In this document: positions 10,551-20,468 of the stretch, piece after piece
Layout: each line of letters opens with the position of its first letter
Numbering within the stretch: position 1 is the first letter of the stretch
Position numbers and translations under genes: made by a program
Assembly (NCBI GenBank): GCA_016782885.1
Contig: JADHXQ010000030.1
Span: 1-43,751, forward strand
Source: Phycisphaerae bacterium
GTDB lineage: Bacteria > Planctomycetota > Phycisphaerae > SM23-33
Direction of reading: 5' to 3'
Length of the DNA: 43,751 bases
Notes under the pieces: model-generated
Told to the model about the DNA's origin: nothing
Database searches by the model: none
Seen by the model: only the letters and a program-made list of their open reading frames with translations

Positions 10551-11945
10551 TCACCCCGGGGCAATCACTTTAGCCTTGAAGCGGACCACGTACCTGCTAT
10601 CCGAATTGCACTTGCGTGGGTTGGGGATGAGGATGAAATCGTCGGTGACGACCGGGTTGAGGTCATCCCCGGCGACGATCTTTATGTCTTTGATCCGGTG
10701 AGGAAGGAATTGGACAATCGGGCGCCAACCGCGCTCCGAACCGTTCGTGTTGACCGGCTTGAACGAATCCTCCCCGCGATTGGGCGTAATTGTCAGCGTG
10801 TAAACACCGTCCTTGATCTCCAGTTTCTGGTTGTAGTAAGTCGGCATCTTGGCCATCCTGGCCGACCATTTCGGATCGCCGTAGAAGGCTACGACGTTGA
10901 GGTCGCCTAGCAACCGCCGTTGGGTGCGGGCGTCGGTTACCGGGTCGTTCATCCGTTGGACCAGGGCATGATGGTTGGCCAGAAACGCCTCGGTGAAGGT
11001 GTAGCGGCCGGGCTGTTCGACGAAGTAATCGAGACACCCCCAACCACCGTAGCCGTACCCGGTCGGGATCGTGTAGCCGATCATCTGCTTCACCCCCACG
11101 GAGTTCATCCAGGCCAGGGCCATCGCATCGCGGTCCTTGACGTGACCCATCAGGCAATTTCCGATCGGCATGTAGACCTTCGGATTGGGGGATTTGATGG
11201 GATGTTTGACGTTTTTCGTATCCAAGCCATACATCCGACCGCCCGCGCACCGAAACTGGCCGTTGCGGTATCGAAAACCGATTTGCCAACCACGTTCGGT
11301 CGCATGCCCCGAGGTGATCATCAGGTCCGCCTTGTAGTTGTTGAGCAGGTCGACGAGAGGTTTGGTGGTGTCGTCGGGGCCTTTCAGTTCTTTCGCCTTG
11401 CCGCCAGGCTCCTTCTTGACGTGCTTGTTCTTAACCAGTTCGTCGTACCACTGACCCTCGGTGACCATCTCGGTGGCGAATTCCGTGCCCGAGGCGACTT
11501 TCTTGACGACCAGCGGCTTGCTATGGCTTGCGATCGCCAGCGCGTTGGCCGCGTCGTAACCGGTGAGAATTCCCCAGAACGTGTCGGTGTAGGGGTCGTC
11601 ATCGAGCTTGCGGGTCAGCCTGTGAACGCGAGCAACGAAATCCCGCCCGGCATCTTCCGGTTTGGTTACGAAGCAGGTGTAGCGGGGAAACTTCTGTTTG
11701 AGCGCATCGAGCGACTCGTCGACCAACGCGTTGTACGTAATCACCGACGCGTTGTGCTTCTTCTTGATCGCCGTGACGACCTTCCGCCATTGGCGGTCCT
11801 CGGCGGTCGACTTCTTCACAACCACGGCGCAGGTGGCTTTCGGCGGCGCGGGCTCGCCGGAGGCCGAACACGGCCGCCATGCGGCGGCGACAGCAGTGCC
11901 GACCAGGATCACCAGGAAAACACGGATTCCAGGGACCGAATTCAC
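10551..11945 (-). CDS. Exported putative clan CD cysteine peptidase (gingipain/caspase-like fold)
   Basis: The 464-residue protein has an N-terminal signal segment (GIRVFLVILVGTAVAAAW). The middle reads as an alpha/beta domain in which ITSGHATERGW (His214) and, 50 residues on, PIGNCLMGHV (Cys264) look like the His-Cys dyad of gingipains, caspases and related C25/C14 peptidases. The following GVKQMIGYTIPTGYGYGGWG resembles the strand and substrate loop after the cysteine. The N-terminal part (LTGYDAANALAIA) resembles the alpha/beta region that precedes the catalytic half in gingipain-like proteins. The C-terminal 90 residues are beta-rich (YTLTITPN, IKIVAGDDL), as in an immunoglobulin-like tail. 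Assignment rests on motif geometry only. Its 5' leader carries the conserved hairpin element shared with three other units. Confidence 0.6.
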   Translation of the reverse strand: MNSVPGIRVFLVILVGTAVAAAWRPCSASGEPAPPKATCAVVVKKSTAEDRQWRKVVTAIKKKHNASVITYNALVDESLDALKQKFPRYTCFVTKPEDAGRDFVARVHRLTRKLDDDPYTDTFWGILTGYDAANALAIASHSKPLVVKKVASGTEFATEMVTEGQWYDELVKNKHVKKEPGGKAKELKGPDDTTKPLVDLLNNYKADLMITSGHATERGWQIGFRYRNGQFRCAGGRMYGLDTKNVKHPIKSPNPKVYMPIGNCLMGHVKDRDAMALAWMNSVGVKQMIGYTIPTGYGYGGWGCLDYFVEQPGRYTFTEAFLANHHALVQRMNDPVTDARTQRRLLGDLNVVAFYGDPKWSARMAKMPTYYNQKLEIKDGVYTLTITPNRGEDSFKPVNTNGSERGWRPIVQFLPHRIKDIKIVAGDDLNPVVTDDFILIPNPRKCNSDSRYVVRFKAKVIAPG

Positions 11946-12025
11946 GTATCGGTTCCCAACCTGCCGAAGAATACTTGCTTCATCGATTCACCATACCTGA
12001 TTTCGTTTGGGTTTCTGCTTGTCCT

Positions 12026-12078
12026 CCCGGATTACCCGGATGGACTCTGGCCCACGACCGCCGCGGGTCTTTCCGATG
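12026..12078 (-). promoter_or_regulatory. Conserved 5' leader element, copy D
   Basis: Minus-strand leader of the clan CD peptidase-like gene. It starts CATCGGAAAGA, followed by the hairpin CCCGCGG-CGG-TCGTGGG (12051-12067; all seven stem positions pair, two as G-U) and then a GGGTAATCC box. The same arrangement occurs in copies A, B and C. About 80 nt separate its end from the start codon. Function unknown; candidate cis-regulatory RNA. Confidence 0.65.
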
Positions 12079-12106
12079 ACGCTATCAAGATCTCGGGGTT
12101 AAGTAA
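12079..12106 (-). promoter_or_regulatory. Promoter of leader copy D
   Basis: Minus strand TTACTT (12101-12106), a 16-bp spacer, then TAGCGT (12079-12084), placed exactly as in the three other copies: the CAYYG start of the leader follows the -10 directly. The -10 is weak taken alone; support comes from the conserved layout. Confidence 0.5.
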
Positions 12107-12136
12107 AGGTCTTTCCGTCCCAGACCCCAGATCCGC

Positions 12137-12164
12137 TTGTTAAACACGCCGCATCGGATACAAT
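12137..12164 (+). promoter_or_regulatory. Promoter of leader copy A
   Basis: TTGTTA (12137-12142), 16-bp spacer, TACAAT (12159-12164). The bases around and between the boxes are also close to those of copy B (for example CATCGGATACA against TATCGGATACA). It diverges from the promoter of copy D, with about 30 bp between the two -35 boxes. Confidence 0.7.
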
Positions 12165-12220
12165 CACCGTGAAAACCCCGTGATGGTCGCGGGCGCAATG
12201 CTATCTGGGAAATCCCAGCT
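12165..12220 (+). promoter_or_regulatory. Conserved 5' leader element, copy A
   Basis: Begins CACCGTGAAAA, followed by the hairpin CCCGTGA-TGG-TCGCGGG (12177-12193, 7 bp) and then a GGGAAATCC box, here inside a second hairpin CTGGG-AAAT-CCCAG. Compared with copy B, stem position 4 changes from G-U to G-C and position 5 from C-G to U-G, both keeping the pair. It ends 12 nt before the start codon of the Tiki-like gene and just before its ribosome site AAGGG. Confidence 0.65.
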
Positions 12221-12232
12221 AAGGGCATAGAA

Positions 12233-13255
12233 ATGGATAGATGGCAGTTACGAGCCCTGATCGCACTGGCGTTCGCAATGATGATGGTGACCCTTGTTGG
12301 TGCCCAGGCAACAAAGAATGCGCCCCCGACCGCCAAGGTCGCAGCACCGGAGCAAGCCCCCGCAAACGCACCCGCTAAACCGCTCGCCCTTCTGAAGAAG
12401 GACAAGAATCTTGAAATTGACCACATAGAAATCAAGGGCGAGAATCCGAAACTGATATATATTCCGATTGTACATGACACCCCTGCGCATCGCCATGCCG
12501 CCGGGGGCGCCAAAGCCATTGAAAAGACTCTCGTCCGCTGCCGGACGATTTCGGAGCATCTTTATACCGAATACGGCGTTCGTAATATTCTCCTGGAAGG
12601 CATCTCCAAGACACTTGCCGACAAATACAACTCCCCCAAGTATCGGAGGCGTAAGCTGTCTGTTGGCAAGAGCAAGTCGGTTACGTTTAAGGTCTGGTTT
12701 GATCTTCTGAACGAGAATCAATGGCGCCTGGCGCCGGCCTATGAGAAGAATACTTATGGGCCGTTGACCCTGCTTGGCCACAAATACACTCTTCGTATTC
12801 AGAAAGCCTTTGGGATCGCCAAGCAGAATGGATGGTTCCGTTCACGCCAGGCTTTTGTTGAAAACCAGACCGAATTCACCGCCCTGATTAGTAAGGCCTG
12901 TGGAGGCTACAACGCCGGCCTGGACGCTCTGCTGTTGAAGGATCCGAAGCTCAAGAAGGAGTATGACATAACTGTAATCCAACGGAACAAGGTCTTTATT
13001 GACAATTCAATGGCGGTGAAAGGGCCGACCATCATTATGTGCGGCGGCGGGCATATTCAGGATCTGATCGATCAGTTTAACAAGCAAAAGATCCCCCACA
13101 TGATTGTTGTGCCCAAGGGCATCGCATGGCCGCCGGCGAAAAAAGATGACAAGACCATTTACAATGATATGCTAAAACTAGGCTGCCAGCTCAGGTCATG
13201 CAACCTCCAGTTCGGCGATGGAACCAGCGCCAAGATCAAGATACCCATTAAATAA
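12233..13255 (+). CDS. Exported TraB/Tiki/EreA-superfamily-like protein
   Basis: The 340-residue protein has a signal peptide (ALIALAFAMMMVTLVGAQA) and an Ala/Pro-rich linker to about residue 52. The domain shows features of the TIKI/TraB/GumN group of putative metalloproteases and erythromycin-esterase-like hydrolases: an early His in IYIPIVHDTP (His81), Glu122 in RNILLEGIS, a late Arg-Asn pair (QRNKVF, 251-252) and a terminal MCGGGHIQDL (His274). In this superfamily two GxxH-type motifs and a Glu are thought to form the active centre. The sequence is divergent, and I place it by spacing of these motifs, not by overall similarity. ATG 12233 has AAGGG 7 nt upstream. Leader copy A precedes it directly. 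Substrate unknown. Confidence 0.55.
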   Translation: MDRWQLRALIALAFAMMMVTLVGAQATKNAPPTAKVAAPEQAPANAPAKPLALLKKDKNLEIDHIEIKGENPKLIYIPIVHDTPAHRHAAGGAKAIEKTLVRCRTISEHLYTEYGVRNILLEGISKTLADKYNSPKYRRRKLSVGKSKSVTFKVWFDLLNENQWRLAPAYEKNTYGPLTLLGHKYTLRIQKAFGIAKQNGWFRSRQAFVENQTEFTALISKACGGYNAGLDALLLKDPKLKKEYDITVIQRNKVFIDNSMAVKGPTIIMCGGGHIQDLIDQFNKQKIPHMIVVPKGIAWPPAKKDDKTIYNDMLKLGCQLRSCNLQFGDGTSAKIKIPIK

Positions 13256-13291
13256 GCAGTAAGCTGCAATAGCCACTACTTGATTTGACAG

Positions 13292-13510
13292 CTACGCTAC
13301 TTGTTTTGTTGTCTGTTTGGTCGAGTCGAACAGTTTGCTTTTGGCCAGTTCGATCGGATCTTCGAACGTCTGCATCGGGGTCTTGCCGAAGCACTATTTG
13401 CCGCTGTGCGTTCGCTCGTGATTGTACTGCTTAAACCAATCATCCAGATCGGCCTGCAGTTCGTCATTCTCCACCCAGACGTCCAGGCCGATATCCCCGC
13501 CCGCGAAGGA
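13292..13510 (-). pseudogene. IS481/IS3-type transposase C-terminal remnant with internal stop
   Basis: On the minus strand the text reads ELQADLDDWFKQYNHERTHS, then GK, a TAG stop, and CFGKTPMQTFEDPIELAKSK. This matches the C-terminal end of rve-type integrase transposases of the IS481/IS3 kind (NNERTHQGK, then GKTPMQT). The in-frame TAG sits where these proteins have Y or M, and the catalytic DDE core is missing upstream. It is therefore a dead fragment, bounded at 13292 by the family's usual stop region. The upstream limit is approximate. Confidence 0.75.
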
Positions 13511-13582
13511 CTGACAAGCCGACACTTCCCAGATAGTCTATGTTGGAAGCCTATGGTCCGATGCCCAGACGCCATATTCAGC

Positions 13583-13610
13583 TTGCTTAACACACCGTAT
13601 CGGATACATT
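13583..13610 (+). promoter_or_regulatory. Promoter of leader copy B
   Basis: TTGCTT (13583-13588), 16-bp spacer, TACATT (13605-13610). It is highly similar to the copy A promoter including non-consensus bases, so the two arose by duplication or are under the same sequence constraint. Confidence 0.65.
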
Positions 13611-13665
13611 CACTGCAAATGCCCCGCGACGGTCGTGGGCTGAGAGGCTATCCAGGAAATCACGG
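13611..13665 (+). promoter_or_regulatory. Conserved 5' leader element, copy B
   Basis: Begins CACTGCAAATG, followed by the hairpin CCCGCGA-CGG-TCGTGGG (13623-13639) and AGGAAATCA. A further perfect hairpin, CGGACAAT / ATTGTCCG (about 13663-13685, loop ATCAGTT), follows just before the ribosome site of the M61-like gene and is specific to this copy. Confidence 0.65.
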
Positions 13666-13703
13666 ACAATATCAGTTATTGTCCGACGACCAGGAGATTG
13701 TAC

Positions 13704-15068
13704 ATGAAGATGCGTTTATTCCCGACACTGTTCGCCAGCTTCTTCGTGATCCCCGGACTCCTCGCCCAGGCCGCAGATGCGCCAAAGGCGGACTCGCGAC
13801 TTGCCTATACGATCAAGACCGACCCGGCGGACCGGAAGGTCCACATCACCGCAACTGTGGGTGGGCATTCCCGCAAGCAGGTTACCCGTTTCACCAGCTT
13901 TGGATTGCGCAAGAAAGTGAAGATCGGCGTCAAGACCAACGACGGCCTGGTGACATTCAGCTACCAGGTACCCATCGATCAGGCCGCGTTCAATGATCCC
14001 TTTCAGCCGGTCCTCAATAAGGATTACTTCGCCGGATTCATGAGCACGTTGCTGCTCGCGCCGAGGATAGAGGGCGTTAATTTCAAGAACATACCTCTCA
14101 CGATCGAGACCCCGAAGGGATGGAGGATCGCGACCAGTCGAGGCGTGGGCGAGGCGAGTTACACGCTGGCCGGTCTCAAGGACCTGGCCGGGACCCTGGT
14201 CTGCGCGGGCGACTACTCGACCTGTTCGTTTGATCTCGAACACAAGGGCGGTAAAACGAGCACGAAATGCCACGTGGCCATTCGCGGGAAGCGGGATTGG
14301 GACGACAAGGAGTTCGTGGACCAGTTCAAGCGCCTGGTGCGCGGACAGATGAACTACTTCGGCGGCAGCCATCCCGCTCCGGTGCAGTTCCTGGCGCTGC
14401 ACCTGCTGCCGAAAGGCGGTAAGTCGCGTATTCCCGCCTTCAACCGCCGAGTGCCCGGTCATGACACCGTGCTGGCGCTTCAGGCCAAGCCGCGCCAGCA
14501 CTTCGAGTTCTTGGGCATGCTTGCCCACGAGCACCTGCATAACTGGTATCCGTACACGATGAAATCGGACCTCGGCCCCTGGTTCATGGAGGGCCTGAAC
14601 GACTACGTCGCCTACCGCGGGCTGCTGGCCAACGGCCTGCATAGCCGCCAGCAGTTCACCGGCATGCTCTCCAAATGGTATCGGGAATATCTGTACTGCC
14701 TCAAGCATAATGACCAGCGTCTGATGCCCTATCGCCGCGGCATGATCGCCGCCTGGGTGTTCGACATAGAACTGCGCCGGACGACGCAGGGACGGCGAGG
14801 CCTTACCGACGTGCTCCGCAACCTGATCGACAGCAAACCGGAAGGCGGGGTCGTCCGGCGTTCACATTTTCTCGCCATGCTGAACAAGGTGTCGGGGAAG
14901 AAGATGGAAGCGTTGTACCGGCACCTGGTCGAGGACGACGGCGCCATCAATCTGGCGACCCACCTCAACGGCACCGGCTTCCACATCGCCGCGAAGACGC
15001 CCGCCATCGAGATCCGTCCGGAAACCGATGCCGAGAAGAAACTGTTCGAGGCGATCCTGTCGGAGTGA
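13704..15068 (+). CDS. Exported M61-like (glycyl aminopeptidase family) zinc peptidase
   Basis: ATG 13704 is preferred over TTG 13698 because CAGGAG (13691-13696) then has a 7-nt spacing. A signal peptide (MRLFPTLFASFFVIPGLLAQ) is followed by an N-terminal beta domain (about 30-190) and a gluzincin catalytic domain: AHEHLHNWYP gives HExxH (His275, Glu276, His279) and FMEGLNDYVA gives the third zinc ligand Glu296. HEHxHNW followed by a WFxEGxxDY stretch is typical of M61 peptidases. C-terminal helical region about 300-440. Role: extracytoplasmic peptide cleavage, probably of N-terminal residues. There is no sign of the C-terminal PDZ domain found in many M61 proteins. Leader copy B lies immediately upstream. 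Confidence 0.85.
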   Translation: MKMRLFPTLFASFFVIPGLLAQAADAPKADSRLAYTIKTDPADRKVHITATVGGHSRKQVTRFTSFGLRKKVKIGVKTNDGLVTFSYQVPIDQAAFNDPFQPVLNKDYFAGFMSTLLLAPRIEGVNFKNIPLTIETPKGWRIATSRGVGEASYTLAGLKDLAGTLVCAGDYSTCSFDLEHKGGKTSTKCHVAIRGKRDWDDKEFVDQFKRLVRGQMNYFGGSHPAPVQFLALHLLPKGGKSRIPAFNRRVPGHDTVLALQAKPRQHFEFLGMLAHEHLHNWYPYTMKSDLGPWFMEGLNDYVAYRGLLANGLHSRQQFTGMLSKWYREYLYCLKHNDQRLMPYRRGMIAAWVFDIELRRTTQGRRGLTDVLRNLIDSKPEGGVVRRSHFLAMLNKVSGKKMEALYRHLVEDDGAINLATHLNGTGFHIAAKTPAIEIRPETDAEKKLFEAILSE

Positions 15069-15151
15069 TCGCCTGAGCATCGCGTTGGATGGTTCGGTCA
15101 CATTAATCGCAGGACGCTGACGTTGAACCCTCCAGGATGTCACTATTTTGA

Positions 15152-15262
15152 CTGAGACAAGAGTTTGACAAGTGGCACGGCGAGTTTGATGTTCTGATCC
15201 GGGCGTACTGCCTTATGCCGAACCATGTGCATCTGATCCTGGTTCCCTCGACATCTGACGGG
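15152..15262 (+). pseudogene. RAYT/IS200-type Y1 transposase fragment
   Basis: The frame reads LIRAYCLMPNHVHLILVPST then SDGLA. AYCLMPNHVHLI with the HxH (HUH) motif is the signature of REP-associated tyrosine transposases. Only about 35 residues remain; a TGA lies directly before and the similarity stops after DGLA. The tyrosine-bearing C-terminal part is absent. By chance it stays in frame with the following M23-like gene. Confidence 0.8.
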
Positions 15263-15308
15263 TTGGCCCTGGTCGCCTGCGGCGGCAGCACAGGAGACAG
15301 CTGTCGTG

Positions 15309-15337
15309 TTGACTCGCCTGGGCGACGGCGGTATCGT
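15309..15337 (+). promoter_or_regulatory. Possible promoter of the M23-like gene
   Basis: TTGACT (15309-15314), 17-bp spacer, TATCGT (15332-15337), about 37 nt before ATG 15374. Supports transcription starting after the RAYT fragment. The -10 is imperfect. Confidence 0.4.
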
Positions 15338-15373
15338 CTGGGCATCGTCAACAGGTTCACATTTCGGTGGCTG

Positions 15374-16438
15374 ATGATGTTCGTCGGCCTGGTTGTTTTT
15401 GTCGGGGCCGTGCAGTTGAGTGCATCGGCGGCGCCCCGTCCCAGGCACGCCGCGGCGCCATACGCTCCGACCAGTTCGTTAGCACAGCGGATCAAGACCA
15501 GCGAGCGCAACGCAGCCCTCAAAGTCGACTCGCTTGTGTTCCCGCATACCGGCGCACTAAACATACTGCCGGGCCCGACATCGAAGCCGACCGGCGCCAT
15601 GTCGATCAGGTACCCCGACGCCGACCGGGTGGTCTGGCAGATCGTACCGTGGTCGCCTAAGCACGCCGAGTATCTGGCGCGCCGGGCTAAGGACCTATCG
15701 GAGAAACGCCCCGAACGGCTCATCGGCTGGTGTCGCAAGAATCGCCTTTCGACGTGCGCGGAGTACGAACTGCGGCTGCTGCTGCGGAAGATATGGGACT
15801 TCAAGAAACCGCAGTATCAGACCTATCGCAAGGTGTGGTACCCGATGGCGGAAAAGCGACAGATAGAATACTCCTTTGCCCTGCCGGTGACAGGCGAGTG
15901 GTACGTCGTACCCGACCGGACCGGACACCACCGCATCAAACACGGGGCCGCATTCGCACACGACCTGGTCATCAGGAAGCGAGGTAGAAGTTATTCCGGC
16001 AGGGGCAAGCACCTCGAAAACTACTACGCCTGGGGCCAACCGATAGTCGCCCAGGCCGACGGGATCGTAACCGCCGCCACCGACAAGAACCCCGACATGC
16101 CGCCAGGCCAATCGGGCGGTTTCAACAACGCCAACTACGTGGCAGTCTATTACGGGGCGGGAATCCAGGGATTCTACGGGCACATCCAGCAGAAATCCCT
16201 GAAGATAAAAGCCGGCGACAAAGTAAAAACCGGCCAGCCCCTGGCGTTGGTGGGCAACTCCGGCGCCTCGGGCGCACCGCACCTCCACTTCACCATGACC
16301 GACATGTCATCGTTCTCGGTAAAGGGACGCTTCACCTACGAAGTGCGCCGAGGCACAAAGTGGCTGCAGATAAACGCTCGTGACCTCCCGCCCAACCAGA
16401 TAGTGAGAAACTGGGACCCGCCCGCCGAGACCCAGTGA
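15374..16438 (+). CDS. Exported M23 (LytM-type) peptidase-like protein
   Basis: Start placed at ATG 15374, where the signal segment begins (MMFVGLVVFVGAVQLSASA). An upstream in-frame ATG at 15215 belongs to a transposase fragment, although the ribosome site here is weak. The C-terminal half is an M23 domain: HGAAFAHDLVI (residues 190-200), a central GWGQPIVAQADGIV-like segment, FYGHIQ, and GNSGASGAPHLHF with the HxH ligand pair (His303, His305). The first motif is not a canonical HxxxD (His190 or His196 with Asp197), so the zinc site may be modified. M23 enzymes cut peptidoglycan peptide bridges or serve as inactive wall-binding factors. The N-terminal 170 residues are helical and unassigned. 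Confidence 0.8.
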   Translation: MMFVGLVVFVGAVQLSASAAPRPRHAAAPYAPTSSLAQRIKTSERNAALKVDSLVFPHTGALNILPGPTSKPTGAMSIRYPDADRVVWQIVPWSPKHAEYLARRAKDLSEKRPERLIGWCRKNRLSTCAEYELRLLLRKIWDFKKPQYQTYRKVWYPMAEKRQIEYSFALPVTGEWYVVPDRTGHHRIKHGAAFAHDLVIRKRGRSYSGRGKHLENYYAWGQPIVAQADGIVTAATDKNPDMPPGQSGGFNNANYVAVYYGAGIQGFYGHIQQKSLKIKAGDKVKTGQPLALVGNSGASGAPHLHFTMTDMSSFSVKGRFTYEVRRGTKWLQINARDLPPNQIVRNWDPPAETQ

Positions 16439-16480
16439 TCAGTGATCCGTGATCAGTTACCAGTAAACGGCAACACCGCA
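16435..16480. repeat. Short GTGATCA-like tandem repeats between convergent genes
   Basis: GTGATCA, GTGATCC, GTGATCA and GTTACCA follow one another between the M23-like and sulfatase stops. Each GTGATCA contains the palindrome TGATCA. It is a short degenerate tandem array with no evident terminator. Confidence 0.5.
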
Positions 16481-16486
16481 AACAAC

Positions 16487-18085
16487 TCACAGAGAACGCC
16501 CGGTCATGCCGAGGAGTTGGGCCTTCAGGTCCGCTTTCACCTTCCCGTGACGCCTGTCGCCGGACAGGTTCGTCCATTCATAGGGGTCGGCGTCGTGGTC
16601 GTACAACTCCTCGCTGCCGTTGTTGTATAGAATATACCGCCACCTGGCTGTCCGAACGGACCAATGCTGCATGGCGGGGTCCCTGGCTGTGCCCTTGCCT
16701 GCAAAGATCATCGTCAGCGCCGCATCGGGCCCCTTCCAGGTTCCGGACTTCGGGTCCTTGAGGAACGGACGCATACTATGGCCGTCCAGTTTGGCGCCCC
16801 GGCGGTTCTTCCGCGTATCGCCTTTGAGGCCGCAGAGGTCAACAAGCGTAGGGTAGATATCGATCAGCGAAACAGGATGCGCCGCCACCCCTCCGGGCGT
16901 CGCCACACCCGGCGCTCGAACGATCAGCGGCACGCGAGCGCTTTCTTCCCAGAGCGAGTTCTTGAAAAGATAATCCTTCTGGCCCATGTTCCAGCCGTGG
17001 TCGCTGGTGACGACGATAATGGTGTTGTCTTTCTGCGAACTCTTGTCCACCGCTTCGATTACCCGACCGATGCAATCGTCAACCGCGGCCACACTGGCCA
17101 GATACGCCTGAGTGAACGCTTTGAGCCCACTTTCCAGCTTCGGATACGATTCCTTGAGCAGGCGGAAGTACTTCAATCCCTTTTTGCTGCTGTCAAAGAC
17201 GTCCGTATAGTGACAGTCTTCGGCGTCGTTGGCCTTGATCACGGGCGCCTTAACCGACTTCAAGGGGAACATGTCGAAGAAACGCTTGGGCACGTGCAGC
17301 GGCGTGTGCGGGCGAATGAAGCCGACGCACAGGAGAAACGGTTTGCCGCTGTCTTGTTTGGCCAGTTCTCTGATCCTGCCGACCGCCCACGACGCGTTGC
17401 GCTCGTCGGGCGTGGGATCGCGATTGGTCTCGTCGGTGTAGTTGAACTTCCTGGTCTTGCCCCAGGTTCCGTAGATCCAACCCTTGTTGTCCTTCCTTCC
17501 GGGTCCGTAAGGCAGGTCCGACAACGGGGCGTAAGAACCGTCAACCGGCCCGATGCTCTTGAACGGTTGGGGAACCGACGGATGTGCGACCCTTTCCTTA
17601 CCGTCATAGACGAATGGCCCGTAGTCGGCCTTGTGCTTGAACTCGCTCCACACTGAAGCGAGATGATGATGCATGAGCTTGCCCGAGCCCGCAACATGGT
17701 AACCATTATCGCGAAAATGCTCCATGATGGTCTTGGAATTCTGGAGCACGGGATTCTTGTACCACTTGTCCCAGAACAGGTTCTTCGAAGTGTGCGGGTA
17801 GATCCCGGTCAGGAAGCTGGATCGCGACGGCGCACAAATGGGATTGTTGCTATAGGCCCGTTTGAACGCCACCCCGGACCGGGCCAATTTGGCGATGTTC
17901 GGCGTTTTGGCCTGGGGATGCCCCGCCAGGGGCGAAACGTAGTCGTTCAGATCGTCGCAGACAATCATCACGACATTGGGCTTTCGCTTCCGATCGACCG
18001 GGGGCTTTGCGTAACCGGCCGACAGACCCAATACCCCAACCGCCCCTGCCGCAAAGCTCTTCAGAAAATCACGCCGAGTTTTCAC
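16487..18085 (-). CDS. Tat-exported sulfatase
   Basis: The 532-residue alkaline-phosphatase-fold sulfatase has a Tat leader (TRRDFLKSFAAGAVG). The activation signature is complete: CAPSRSSFLTG (Cys84), the site converted to formylglycine by anaerobic or FGE-type maturation. Metal ligands are seen in MIVCDDLND (Asp44-45) and VVTSDHGWNMGQ. The C-terminal region has the usual NNGSEELYDHDADPYEWTNL segment. The pattern resembles iduronate-2-sulfatase-like members, but subfamily and sugar cannot be fixed by eye. It starts 1 nt after the stop of the CE6-type esterase gene (operon), which fits removal of sulfate and acetate from the same polysaccharide. Confidence 0.92.
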   Translation of the reverse strand: MKTRRDFLKSFAAGAVGVLGLSAGYAKPPVDRKRKPNVVMIVCDDLNDYVSPLAGHPQAKTPNIAKLARSGVAFKRAYSNNPICAPSRSSFLTGIYPHTSKNLFWDKWYKNPVLQNSKTIMEHFRDNGYHVAGSGKLMHHHLASVWSEFKHKADYGPFVYDGKERVAHPSVPQPFKSIGPVDGSYAPLSDLPYGPGRKDNKGWIYGTWGKTRKFNYTDETNRDPTPDERNASWAVGRIRELAKQDSGKPFLLCVGFIRPHTPLHVPKRFFDMFPLKSVKAPVIKANDAEDCHYTDVFDSSKKGLKYFRLLKESYPKLESGLKAFTQAYLASVAAVDDCIGRVIEAVDKSSQKDNTIIVVTSDHGWNMGQKDYLFKNSLWEESARVPLIVRAPGVATPGGVAAHPVSLIDIYPTLVDLCGLKGDTRKNRRGAKLDGHSMRPFLKDPKSGTWKGPDAALTMIFAGKGTARDPAMQHWSVRTARWRYILYNNGSEELYDHDADPYEWTNLSGDRRHGKVKADLKAQLLGMTGRSL

Positions 18086-18086
18086 G

Positions 18087-18920
18087 CTACTTTGCCTTCT
18101 TCGCTTTGGCTTTCTGTTCGGCTTTCTGTTTGGCGTGGATATTGAGCATTGCTTCGGCGTATCGCTTGCCGAGCAGTTTCATGCTCCTGGCGTCAAAATG
18201 CCAGCGGTCCATGGTGGTGAGCCCCTCGGCGCCGGCGAATCCGGTATATTCTGCGGCCTTGGGCAATTGTCTGATCTGGTCGTTGATCAGTTTAACCTTC
18301 TGGACCTCACCAGCCACGAACGGGAGGTTCGGATCGTCGAGGTCTTTTCTGAGATCGGCGATCAGGGCCTTGAGCTTGTCGAGGTACTTGGCGTCTTTCG
18401 CGTCGGATTCCCCCTGGTGCCAGAGAACGCCCTTCAGCACACCGGTTTCCTTTGCGAGTTTCGTTCGCTTCAGGGCGTCCTTGTAGAACTTCGAGCCCTT
18501 GGCCCACAGCCGGATACTCGTACCGCCCTTGGCGTTGACAACCAGTCCGACCGAAAGGGTCTTGTCCTTCTCGAGCATCGTCGTCGCGAAACCATAACCG
18601 GGGTTCATCTTCTGCATACCCAGGCCCTTGCGAATCGTCGAGTAGCGATTTAAGGGGTTCTTCGCGGGCTCCCACTTGCCTTCTTTATTGAGCAGGCTGC
18701 ACCGCGGAATAACGGCAGCCTCTGCGTCAGTAAACGGAGCCCGCCCAGCCATGTTCGACTGCCCGATCAGGAGATAAATATGAAGCAGTCCGGGCCTCGC
18801 CTTGGGCTTGGGCGCAGTAGTCGCCTGATCCTGCACGCGAGCGGACGCTACAACCGCCATGAAGACAAGCAACGCAATCAACAGACCACTACGCGGTAAC
18901 TTTCTCGTAACGTTTATCAT
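18087..18920 (-). CDS. Exported SGNH/SASA esterase (carbohydrate esterase family 6 type)
   Basis: The 277-residue protein has a signal peptide (LLIALLVFMAVVASARV). The SASA/CE6 motifs are clear: LLIGQSNMAGR (nucleophile Ser), VLWHQGESDA (oxyanion and acid region) and DRWHFDA (Asp-His dyad). Known members deacetylate xylan or sialic acids. The C-terminus is a Lys/Ala-rich tail (KQKAEQKAKAKKAK). ATG 18920 has GAGAAGGG upstream. It is the first gene of a two-gene operon with the sulfatase and is likely to act on the same substrate outside the cytoplasm. Confidence 0.88.
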   Translation of the reverse strand: MINVTRKLPRSGLLIALLVFMAVVASARVQDQATTAPKPKARPGLLHIYLLIGQSNMAGRAPFTDAEAAVIPRCSLLNKEGKWEPAKNPLNRYSTIRKGLGMQKMNPGYGFATTMLEKDKTLSVGLVVNAKGGTSIRLWAKGSKFYKDALKRTKLAKETGVLKGVLWHQGESDAKDAKYLDKLKALIADLRKDLDDPNLPFVAGEVQKVKLINDQIRQLPKAAEYTGFAGAEGLTTMDRWHFDARSMKLLGKRYAEAMLNIHAKQKAEQKAKAKKAK

Positions 18921-19055
18921 TTCGCCCTTCTCATTTGCAGCCGCATGCTTCGCTCAACGCCCCATCTTCTTCACAACTGCCGAAAGCTCTCGCAGCGCCA
19001 GGTCATCCCGGGCCCCGTTCGCCGTCGCCGCTTGCGGCTTAGCATTGCCTCTAAC

Positions 19056-19646
19056 CTATTTTTCCTTGTAGACGGTATCTATCGCCAGACCTGCGGCCAG
19101 AAGCAACGTCGCATGGTCCGGTTCGTTCTTGCCTTCGAGGGAGATGATGTAGTTATCCGCCGACGTGAACAGCTCCTTTCCGATCCCCGCCCACTTCTTG
19201 GTGATCTTGCCGATCTCGTTGCCCGAACTGTCGGTGAAACGGAAATTCCATCCTTTCCAATCGCCCTTGACCAGCGCTACTTCACGGCCCTCGGTATCGA
19301 AAACTCTAAATGCGCCTCCCATTGAGAGCAATTTGCTCTTGAACCATCCGACAAGGCTCCCATCAGCATTGCATACATCGATCTTGGACCTGAACATCGT
19401 GAATCCGCGTTGAATGAAGAACAGCAGCTTGCTCTCATCGTCGGGATCTGAACCTTCGTAAATGAAGACCTTCGTCGGGAGGATCCGTTTGTTGACCACG
19501 AGGCGGAGCAGTTTCATGAACCCGCCGGGTTTCTCTTTTGCGATACCCAACTGATCCTGCGTCTCGGGATCGAGGATATCGAAGGTGTCGGTGAGCTTCA
19601 TGAAACCCACATGTTCGCGAATGAAGTACGTTTGTCTACTCAGCAT
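19056..19646 (-). CDS. LURP-one-related / scramblase-like (tubby-fold) protein
   Basis: Start placed at ATG 19646 (MLSRQTYFIREHVGFMKLTD) because GGGAGAG lies 4 nt upstream; an in-frame start 48 nt further upstream adds a stretch with no family character. The 196-residue protein has the LOR pattern: YFIREH, FDILDPETQDQLGIAKEKP, then repeated strands (FTMFRSKIDVCNADGSLVGW, FRVFDTEGREVALVKGDWKG, FRFTDSSGNEIGKITKKWAG) and ALLLAAGLAIDTVYKEK-type C-terminal helix. The fold is a closed 12-strand barrel around a helix, related to Tubby and phospholipid scramblases. Function in bacteria is unknown. No signal peptide. Confidence 0.8.
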   Translation of the reverse strand: MLSRQTYFIREHVGFMKLTDTFDILDPETQDQLGIAKEKPGGFMKLLRLVVNKRILPTKVFIYEGSDPDDESKLLFFIQRGFTMFRSKIDVCNADGSLVGWFKSKLLSMGGAFRVFDTEGREVALVKGDWKGWNFRFTDSSGNEIGKITKKWAGIGKELFTSADNYIISLEGKNEPDHATLLLAAGLAIDTVYKEK

Positions 19647-19828
19647 GTTGCTCTCCCGGGCAAGTTTAATAAATGTTCGATGCGCGTGTTGCATCGATGT
19701 CCGGCAGTATCATACATGACCAGTGCGTCGAGGGCACCTTTTTTTATTGCGGCCTCAAAAACTTACCGGTGACGCTCCGCAGCAGCAGAACCGGACCACG
19801 TGGAAGAAGACCGGGGCCGGGAAGGGGC

Positions 19829-19856
19829 TTGCAAATATCGGGAATTGCGGTAGTAT
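19829..19856 (+). promoter_or_regulatory. Promoter of leader copy C
   Basis: TTGCAA (19829-19834), 16-bp spacer, TAGTAT (19851-19856), with GCTTG upstream as in copies A and B. The spacer sequence differs from A and B, so spacing and boxes are kept while the filler is not. Confidence 0.6.
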
Positions 19857-19909
19857 CATCGCAGCGGTCCGCGGCGGTCGTGGGCACAACGCCAATTGGG
19901 AATCCCCGG
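19857..19909 (+). promoter_or_regulatory. Conserved 5' leader element, copy C
   Basis: Begins CATCGCAGCGG, followed by the hairpin TCCGCGG-CGG-TCGTGGG (19868-19884; U-G, C-G, C-G, G-U, C-G, G-C, G-U) and GGGAATCCC. It precedes the YeeE/YedE operon by about 28 nt. Same layout as copies A, B and D. Confidence 0.65.
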
Positions 19910-19937
19910 TCAAACGGGAAAAATGAAAGGGAAGATC

Positions 19938-20468
19938 ATGCATACATCGCGAGAACCGATTCTGCCCTGGTGGGCGGCGGGAATACTGCTGGGACTTGTG
20001 ATGACGCTGGCTGTGGCGGTAAAGAAACCGCTGGGCGTCTCGACGCAGTTCGTGGTCGCCAACGGCGCCATACTCAAGGAGGCCGCCTCGGACTATGTCG
20101 ACGGGCACGACATGCTCAAGCAGGCCAAGTACCACACGCCGGGATACGGATGGTGGTTCGATATCGGCCTGTTCGTCGCCGCATCCGCCACCGCCGTCCT
20201 CGTCGGAAAGTTCAAACCGCGCGCAACATGCGAGTGGGCTCGCGCCAACGGATCGGTGCGAAAGCGCCTGATCCTGTCGTTCATCGGCGGTTTCATCCTG
20301 CTGTTCGGCACCCGCCTTGCCGGCGGATGCACCAGCGGGCAGTTCGCCAGCGGATGGGCGCAGCTTTCGCTGTCGGTCGTTCCGTTCACCGTCGCGATGT
20401 TCGCGTTCGGAATGCTCGCCGCACGCATCTTTTTCCCCAAAACACCTGGCGTCAGCGAAGGAGCATGA
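19938..20468 (+). CDS. YeeE/YedE family half-transporter, N-terminal-type subunit
   Basis: ATG 19938 is chosen because AAAGGGAAG sits just before it; ATG 19923 would add five residues. The 176-residue membrane protein has about four hydrophobic segments (WWAAGILLGLVMTLAVAV, FDIGLFVAASATAVLV, LILSFIGGFILLFGTRLAGG, VPFTVAMFAFGMLAARIFF). The conserved thiol motif GGCTSGQFASG is present. YeeE/YedE (TsuA, PmpA/PmpB) proteins carry thiosulfate or related sulfur compounds through relay cysteines. The partner half follows after 1 nt, so the pair probably forms one transporter. Leader copy C precedes it, so it may be regulated together with the other leader-bearing units. Confidence 0.88.
   Translation: MHTSREPILPWWAAGILLGLVMTLAVAVKKPLGVSTQFVVANGAILKEAASDYVDGHDMLKQAKYHTPGYGWWFDIGLFVAASATAVLVGKFKPRATCEWARANGSVRKRLILSFIGGFILLFGTRLAGGCTSGQFASGWAQLSLSVVPFTVAMFAFGMLAARIFFPKTPGVSEGA

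Follow-up and report, generated by a model that had tools for sequence, protein, structure and literature searches.

Modules and genes in the window

The window, meaning the whole stretch of 43,751 bases that was analysed, contains four copies of a module, all of which combine a promoter-like -35/-10 pair with a hairpin of 7 bp and a GGNAATC box. Each copy is annotated here as a solo right end of an IS1380-family insertion sequence, and the bit scores are those of the refined covariance model R2. Copy 1 (plus strand, about 12135-12224, 90.2 bits) comprises a -35 box TTGTTA at 12137-12142, a -10 box TACAAT at 12159-12164, a hairpin at 12177-12193, and the terminal inverted repeat CTGGGAAATCCCAG at 12205-12218. 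The gene behind it (12233-13255, plus strand, ATG 12233) encodes 340 aa with a signal-peptide-like start. Copy 2 (plus strand, about 13581-13671, 84.9 bits) carries TTGCTT at 13583-13588, TACATT at 13605-13610, the hairpin at 13623-13639, and the inverted repeat CCAGGAAATCACGG at 13652-13665, followed by a plus-strand gene (13704-15068, ATG 13704) for a protein of 454 aa that also has a signal-peptide-like start. Copy 3 (plus strand, about 19827-19915, 73.2 bits), with TTGCAA at 19829-19834, TAGTAT at 19851-19856, the hairpin at 19868-19884, and the inverted repeat TTGGGAATCCCCGG at 19896-19909, precedes the plus-strand gene of a sulphur transport protein of the YeeE/YedE type (19923-20468, ATG 19923; PF04143, E 8.9e-18). 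Copy 4 lies on the minus strand, back to back with copy 1 (about 12020-12108, 69.8 bits). Its -35 box is located at about 12101-12107, the -10 box TAGCGT at 12079-12084, the hairpin at 12051-12067, and the inverted repeat CCGGGTAATCCGGG at 12026-12039; the minus-strand gene behind it (10551-11945) encodes 464 aa. Of the names that a sequence-only reading had given to these four genes, only that of the sulphur transporter is confirmed, and the genes behind copies 1, 2, and 4 have no Pfam match at E<=0.01.

All four copies lie where that reading had placed them. The 16-bp spacing it reported between the -35 and -10 boxes is present in all four in the alignment register, with 17 bp in the minus-strand copy if the hexamer is shifted by one base. 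When both strands of the window are scanned, seven sites combine a stem of 7 bp and a YGG loop, and at four of them, exactly the four copies, a GGNAATC box follows 13-15 nt later. R2 scores the copies at 69.8-90.2 bits and the next-best match in the window at 13.7 bits; this gap, together with the further copies in the genome, places the module far beyond chance. The initial covariance model R1, built from the four window copies, had already recovered further copies in the same genome (best E 1.3e-13), and R2 finds at least 42 copies in this genome (G000) at E<=0.01. Copy counts are lower bounds throughout, because only part of the first-look candidates was scored: 150 of 2,040 in one search, 114 of 1,967 for G000 in another, and at most 111, 29, or 14 per genome in other searches. 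Pairwise comparison reveals that similarity between many copies begins upstream of the -35 box and mostly ends just past the GGNAATC box or inverted repeat, forming a sharp boundary.

Assignment to the IS1380 family

The module is the right-hand end of an insertion sequence of the IS1380 family. In a relative, the ORF lying upstream of a copy matches NF033539 (transpos_IS1380) with an E value of 1.9e-77 and 260.7 bits, the cut-off being 180. In five contigs (G003:C334, G003:C719, G003:C84, G042:C36, and G007:C92), the module starts 228-240 nt past the end of the transposase profile match, and in a complete relative about 175 nt separate the transposase gene from the module that follows it. The complete element in G007:C92 spans 1,677 bp and is bounded by matching inverted repeats, CCCGGATTTCCC at the left end and GGGAAATCCCGG at the right end. 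A complete element of 1,679 bp, with a module of 67.4 bits, is present in a Kiritimatiellae MAG; the complete elements with a transposase are the loci L148/L238 and L239. The right inverted repeat, with mismatches, is present in all four window copies. Among 80 IS1380 loci fetched by their transposase, 66 contain a match to the right repeat (16 positions with up to 4 mismatches allowed, where the loosest matches may be due to chance), and in five the transposase is followed by the module at E<=0.01. A hairpin before the right repeat is not supported as an IS1380-wide trait in these 66 of 80 loci (mean z -0.37 outward, -0.42 inward). At locus L249, a weak R2 match (E 0.0012) lies on the other strand at the left end.

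Fresh insertions are found in the sister genome G002, where five copies are identical from the contig edge through the whole repeat, beyond which their sequences are unrelated. Six right-end loci, two of which share one flank, were compared with ten left flanks, and four of the five distinct right flanks equal a left flank, corresponding to target duplications of exactly 5 bp (shuffle P 0.001 on distinct flanks). These duplications are seen in the fresh G002 insertions, the solo copies having no left end. In a wider set of 145 copies, which are the best-scoring rather than random copies after removal of four duplicate rows and the three weakest rows, the right flanks of the 106 copies with a readable repeat show the pattern NTNAN (T 70%, A 75%), with which the flank CTAAG of copy 1 agrees. 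The transposase at a near-fixed distance, the matching inverted repeats, and the 5-bp duplications together establish membership of the insertion sequence. The GGNAATC box is thus the IS1380 terminal inverted repeat. From the earlier interpretation as a promoter-plus-leader RNA, the repeated module, its further copies, and the covarying stem remain, and a new riboswitch-like family is not supported.

The putative outward promoter and leader hairpin

By sequence match, the right end contains an outward-facing -35/-10 pair with 16-bp spacing that reads out through the terminal repeat; the promoter columns are part of R2, so that the search itself partly favours copies that share the promoter. 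The stem was analysed in 134 copies, obtained from the 145 by omitting 11 that are identical or of unusual model length. Mapped on a tree, changes over the seven pairs comprise 72 from Watson-Crick to GU, 24 from Watson-Crick to AC, and 17 compensatory doubles, compared with 2.4, 2.2, and 0.9 per pair, respectively, for random column pairs. Counted as stem cells, GU exceeds AC by 119 to 31. The excess of GU over AC changes indicates that pairing is selected on the outward strand. The pairing-preserving stem differences noted in the four window copies extend, as covariation on the transcribed strand, to the wider copy set.

A near-perfect inverted repeat beside a transposon end could also serve as a palindromic DNA site, recognised by the transposase or by a regulator of the host, with RNA pairing being incidental, and a dimer site can likewise yield compensatory changes. 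Such a site would be expected to show G-T and A-C differences between its half-sites alike, which is at odds with both the cell counts and the tree-mapped changes given above, and this explanation is considered unlikely.

The folding energy of the leader is no better than that of shuffled sequence (z -0.46 to +0.34), so the support for the stem consists of the covariation. This support came only with the wider set. In an alignment of 17 copies, the structure was indistinct from shuffles: the covariation score of a two-hairpin structure was reached by 39 of 500 shuffles and its one pair with double changes by 439 of 500, while slid versions gave up to three such pairs versus one. The second hairpin was dropped as an RNA structure, with 59% of its cells pairing in the 17 copies and an overlap with the inverted repeat. 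It is the terminal repeat, and since no U run follows it in the four copies, it was also rejected as an intrinsic terminator. A leader peptide was discarded as the AUG in the loop is lost in copies with a CGG loop, and a pseudoknot between the loop and the YYAUC linker was discarded as changes in the linker do not track those in the loop.

Genes behind the copies

In G000, 30 of the at least 42 copies were examined, and the next gene is in sense orientation in all 28 called cases. Across 145 copies from 25 genomes, this holds for 115 of 124 called genes; 89 of these 115 begin within 100 nt, and the median distance from module to gene start is 36 nt. For the upstream gene, the strand agrees in only 74 of 129 cases (Fisher 4e-11 for the sense bias of downstream versus upstream genes, the copies not being independent). 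These ORFs were called with a home-made caller, and 24 of the 145 copies overlap a called ORF. Since dozens of right ends lie directly before host genes and read towards them, it is likely, judging from sequence and placement, that they provide these genes with ready-made promoters. Among the five identical recent copies in G002, two have a sense gene downstream, one overlaps a sense ORF, and two overlap an antisense ORF. The sense bias is thus weaker among fresh insertions, which fits retention by selection, though five copies are few.

No shared function was found among 126 downstream proteins, which are diverse, with just some pairs being related. Near-identical downstream proteins across genomes are limited to two pairs. 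As a sign of retention, locus L058 of G000 and a copy in G001 are 83% identical over 1,502 nt of module and gene (84.3% for the downstream proteins), whereas the upstream sequence is different. Given this diversity and the origin of the module as an IS1380 right end, the earlier proposal of a signal coordinating protein turnover with sulphur import is not upheld.

The same data bear on a host family of cis-regulatory RNAs, either a riboswitch or a protein-responsive leader, that spread alone and was captured at some IS1380 right ends. The many copies before genes, the conserved YGG loop, and the stem covariation on the transcribed strand would suit such a family. Nevertheless, the 3' part of the module is a transposon terminal repeat that matches the left end, copies stop at this repeat and continue into target-site-like bases, and fresh copies are flanked by 5-bp duplications. 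The downstream genes are diverse, loop and linker do not covary, and Rfam offers no family for the window or nine related loci at gathering thresholds, or for three copies at E<=5, and the sequence-only reading had not recognised a known riboswitch either. A host RNA family is therefore regarded as very improbable.

Solo right ends

Right ends far outnumber left ends. At E<=0.01, G000 has at least 42 right ends and at least three left ends, the latter weak and partial. Among the candidates scored, the corresponding numbers are at least 73 and at least three in G003, at least 39 and at least two in G007, at least 19 and none in G017, and at least 16 and none in G009. Of 38 genomes, 24 have more right than left ends, one is a tie, one shows the reverse, and 12 have neither end among the candidates scored. 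Because the left-end model R3, built on seven sequences, may have a lower sensitivity than R2, some of the right-end excess may reflect detection. No left end was found in the window at E<=5, and no IS1380 transposase was found in G000 at E<=1e-10, so the local copies are remnants. G048 displays the opposite pattern, with at least 33 left ends and no right end among the candidates scored.

The remnants could be plain debris, i.e., functionless, decaying right ends whose sense orientation merely reflects the loss of insertions elsewhere. Their left breakpoints are scattered from about -157 to 0, 26 of the 145 inverted repeats are eroded (at least four mismatches to any of four repeat variants), and the fresh G002 copies are not uniformly sense. 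Decay acting evenly would not, however, produce the imbalance of ends in G000 and G003, unless the left-end model misses many, and the sense orientation in G000 is uniform among the called cases. Furthermore, copies with eroded repeats retain a mean of 6.46 of seven stem pairs, compared with 6.49 in the others and 4.62 in the background, a comparison with some bias, as a copy must match the model to some degree to be found. Functionless debris is accordingly judged improbable.

One-ended transposition, in which the right repeat is used with a pseudo-left end, would make each solo end a mobile promoter unit complete in itself, not the remnant of a deletion. As described in PMC9330008, IS1380 members can carry neighbouring DNA along when an end is misread. 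This route is compatible with the surplus of right ends and with the back-to-back pairs in the window (12026-12218) and at L106, L126, and L080. On the other hand, the target duplications observed belong to the fresh G002 insertions, the left breakpoints are scattered and the outer flanks of the window pair are unequal (AGGAC and CTAAG). This route is retained as a tentative option with some plausibility.

The explanation in which we place good confidence is that an IS1380 right end is present as dozens of solo copies upstream of host genes, likely providing them with a promoter of the sigma70 type and with a 5' leader capped by the hairpin. An insertion sequence of this type would carry along, on transposing, a promoter that faces outward from its right end. 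With a predicted transcript start about 5-6 nt ahead of the hairpin, mRNA of the neighbouring gene would open with a stem-loop. In other bacteria, 5' stem-loops protect mRNA 5' ends from decay, and the leader stem-loop is predicted to provide similar shielding here. Insertions yielding a useful promoter may have been kept while the remaining element was deleted, which would result in solo right ends before many unrelated genes. An extension of this scheme, in which the solo ends form a dispersed regulon and the YGG-loop hairpin is read by a shared RNA-binding factor that jointly sets mRNA stability or translation of genes with this common promoter and leader, is rather doubtful.

Relation to known systems

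The promoter of ISEcp1, a member of the IS1380 family, sits at the 3' (right) side of the element. In the part of PMC9330008 that was available, ISEcp1 is described as having a complete outward promoter, TTGAAA-18N-TACAAT, that drives neighbouring genes, and promoter fixation is the term used for a remnant of about 200 bp that has kept this promoter in front of a gene. ISPme1, of the same family, mobilises DNA adjoining its 3' end (PMC9330008, same portion). The copies described here share the family and the outward promoter sequence with these elements as far as they are described there. In contrast to these single elements by one gene or with mobilised cargo, one genome has at least 42 solo right ends and several relatives have tens of them, the spacer is 16 bp, and a covarying hairpin is located between promoter and terminal repeat. 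Mobile promoters, or promoter propagation, in prokaryotes are named in the available part of PMC9208149. The resemblance lies in repeated promoter sequences before genes and spread by mobile elements; here, by comparison with what is given there, the carrier element is identified along with its ends and target duplication, and a structured leader forms part of the repeat. No report of solo IS1380 ends in bulk appears among the literature matches listed, as far as their text was available. Within that scope, outward IS1380 promoters are known already, and the number of ends, their solo state, and the leader hairpin are new.

Apparent internally deleted, two-ended derivatives of about 295-670 bp in relatives (L137, L139, L136, and G001:C218) resemble MITEs. 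The window copies themselves were rejected as MITEs, given the missing left end in the window and the at least three weak, partial left-end matches in the genome. Like Rfam cis-regulatory RNAs, the module has a leader hairpin that is conserved, covaries, and is placed close to the predicted mRNA 5' end, but it differs in being a transposon terminus.

Significance

The candidate riboswitch is replaced by an element of traceable origin, the end of a transposon. For covariance searches aimed at new RNAs, this is a caution that the ends of insertion sequences can be caught as well. The case is a clean natural example of transposon-derived, promoter-like ends kept in bulk in one bacterial lineage, and it offers an identified parent element, a base-exact boundary, and a strand-specific signature that the transcript matters. 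In eukaryotes, regulatory networks have been seeded by transposon ends, and a parallel would exist here if the solo ends are active. In that event, a sizeable set of genes would owe both promoter and 5' leader to one insertion-sequence family.

Occurrence of the module

The sequence-only reading described four modules in the window, and both their positions and their layout hold up. They lie at 12135-12218 (+; copy 1), 13581-13665 (+; copy 2), 19827-19909 (+; copy 3) and 12026-12108 (-; copy 4), each with a -35/-10 pair, a 7-bp hairpin with a YGG loop (stem 1) and a GGNAATC box. Such a stem and loop occur at seven sites in the window, four of which, the modules only, carry the box. The same reading had proposed a covariance search for further copies, and the model R1, built from the four, retrieved more in the same genome. 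The second model, R2, was built from 17 copies with stem 1 as its sole structure and includes the promoter columns. At E ≤ 0.01, R2 finds at least 42 copies in the window's own genome (G000) and matches 43 of 150 relatives, compared with 7 of 294 genomes phylum-wide at the stricter E ≤ 1e-4, the own genome being counted in both. All copy counts are lower bounds, with part of the candidates scored. These results establish the motif as real, with its copies concentrated in the lineage of the window genome.

Just upstream of copy 2, a one-stop frame at 13296-13490 (-) resembles the C-terminal end of a transposase, which we take to be of the integrase type; it is apparently what remains of a different insertion sequence. 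Farther along, past the gene that copy 2 precedes, lies an ORF with a Peptidase_M23 domain (15215-16438, +; PF01551, E 6.4e-15).

Right end of an IS1380 element

Comparison of 145 copies from 25 genomes revealed similarity reaching hundreds of bases upstream in some pairs and mostly ending just past the GGNAATC box. Five copies in G002, one genome of the comparison set, share the same sequence from the contig edge up to the last base of the box, beyond which the DNA is unrelated. In one relative, an IS1380 transposase is encoded by the ORF lying upstream of a copy. On five contigs, the module starts 228-240 nt past the point where the transposase profile match ends, and in a complete element about 175 nt behind the transposase reading frame. 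One contig carries the element in full (1,677 bp), with inverted repeats at its left (CCCGGATTTCCC) and right (GGGAAATCCCGG) ends; a second complete element, of 1,679 bp, is found in a Kiritimatiellae MAG. For fresh insertions in G002, 10 left-end flanks were compared with six right-end loci (five distinct flanks). Among the distinct right flanks, four of five are matched by a left flank, in each case over exactly 5 bp (TTGAA, TCTAC, TCCAG and CTTAC; shuffle P 0.001, distinct flanks only). The bases just after the repeat, readable in 106 of the 145 copies, follow the pattern NTNAN. The sharp boundary, the transposase, the matching ends, the 5-bp duplications and the NTNAN flanks together identify the module as the right end of the element, with the GGNAATC box as the terminal inverted repeat.

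Solo right ends

Left ends, searched with R3, a model built on seven sequences, are much rarer than R2 right ends. The own genome has three, weak and partial, versus at least 42 right ends. Further lower bounds for left versus right are 1 and 20 (G001), 12 and 41 (G002), 3 and 73 (G003), 2 and 39 (G007), and 0 versus 19, 16 and 12 (G017, G009 and G047). Right ends outnumber left ends in 24 of 38 genomes, with one tie and neither end in 12. Because R3 rests on few sequences, its sensitivity may explain part of this gap. G048 shows the opposite pattern, with 33 left and no right ends, and has either a different right end or one that escapes detection by R2. Its left ends are near-identical, belong to a related IS1380 type, lie in several cases at contig edges and lack an R2-type right end; they perhaps reflect a different subgroup that expanded recently.

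In the window, R3 detected no left end at E ≤ 5, and no IS1380 transposase was found in the own genome at E ≤ 1e-10. Solo copies have scattered left breakpoints, and G036 and G001 contain apparent derivatives with both ends and the transposase mostly or wholly gone. Back-to-back right ends reading outward both ways occur at window 12026-12218, where the pair faces two divergent genes, and at L106, L126, L080 and contig C43 of G000. In locus L249, the left end of the IS1380 element there has a weak R2 match on the other strand (2329-2393, -; E 0.0012), and the left end of some relatives' elements may carry a similar hairpin.

Pairing in the hairpin

Across 134 of the 145 copies, stem cells comprise 767 WC, 119 GU, 31 AC and 18 other; with one copy per genome (25 genomes), the numbers are 148, 19, 4 and 4. 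Stem changes were traced by parsimony along a tree inferred with the stem excluded. The seven pairs show 72 WC-to-GU changes, 24 WC-to-AC changes and 17 compensatory doubles, while random column pairs show 2.4, 2.2 and 0.9 per pair, respectively. A stem acting as a DNA palindrome would show no one-strand preference for G-T over A-C, and the preference observed speaks against it. Pairing is therefore under selection on the outward strand, bearing out the earlier reading of the pairing-preserving differences as RNA structure. In the first 17 copies alone, covariation did not set the structure apart from shuffled or slid controls. The thermodynamic stability of the hairpin is ordinary.

Several copies carry extra small palindromes (for example CCTGCCGGTAGGCAGG or ATCCCGATGTGCATCGGG-like), located inside the hairpin or between it and the inverted repeat, namely L020/L058, L022/L052, L026/L059, L031, L033/L065 and L034/L064 in G000, and L111 in G002. 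Judged by sequence, these look as if another short dispersed repeat were inserting into the hairpins.

Position relative to genes

Genes were called by a codon-bias ORF caller. The next gene is sense in all 28 called cases of the own genome (30 of 42 copies examined) and in 115 of 124 overall (145 copies); the copies compared are mutually related, and P values assuming independence are merely indicative. The sense gene starts a median of 36 nt from the module (≤100 nt in 89 of 115), and the upstream gene lies on the module's strand in 74 of 129 cases. For two copies, the gene behind the module has a clear counterpart behind a module in a second genome (84.3% over 472 aa in one case, 88.3% over the available 77 aa in the other); for the former pair, shared sequence starts at the module and not upstream of it. 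A hydrophobic N-terminal stretch is present in 69 of 126 downstream proteins, whose families differ.

Proposed role and precedents

The -35/-10 pair would act as a working promoter, with transcription predicted from sequence positions to start 5-6 nt ahead of the hairpin. The 5' stem-loop may stabilise the mRNA, and useful insertions would be retained while the remainder of the element is lost. According to PMC9330008, outward promoters are established for the IS1380 elements ISEcp1 and ISPme1, and an ISEcp1 remnant of about 200 bp retained as a promoter is on record. The module, with its predicted outward promoter, is therefore a variant of something known. Compared with ISEcp1 and ISPme1 as described there, what is unusual here is the copy number, the solo state across a lineage and the conserved leader hairpin.
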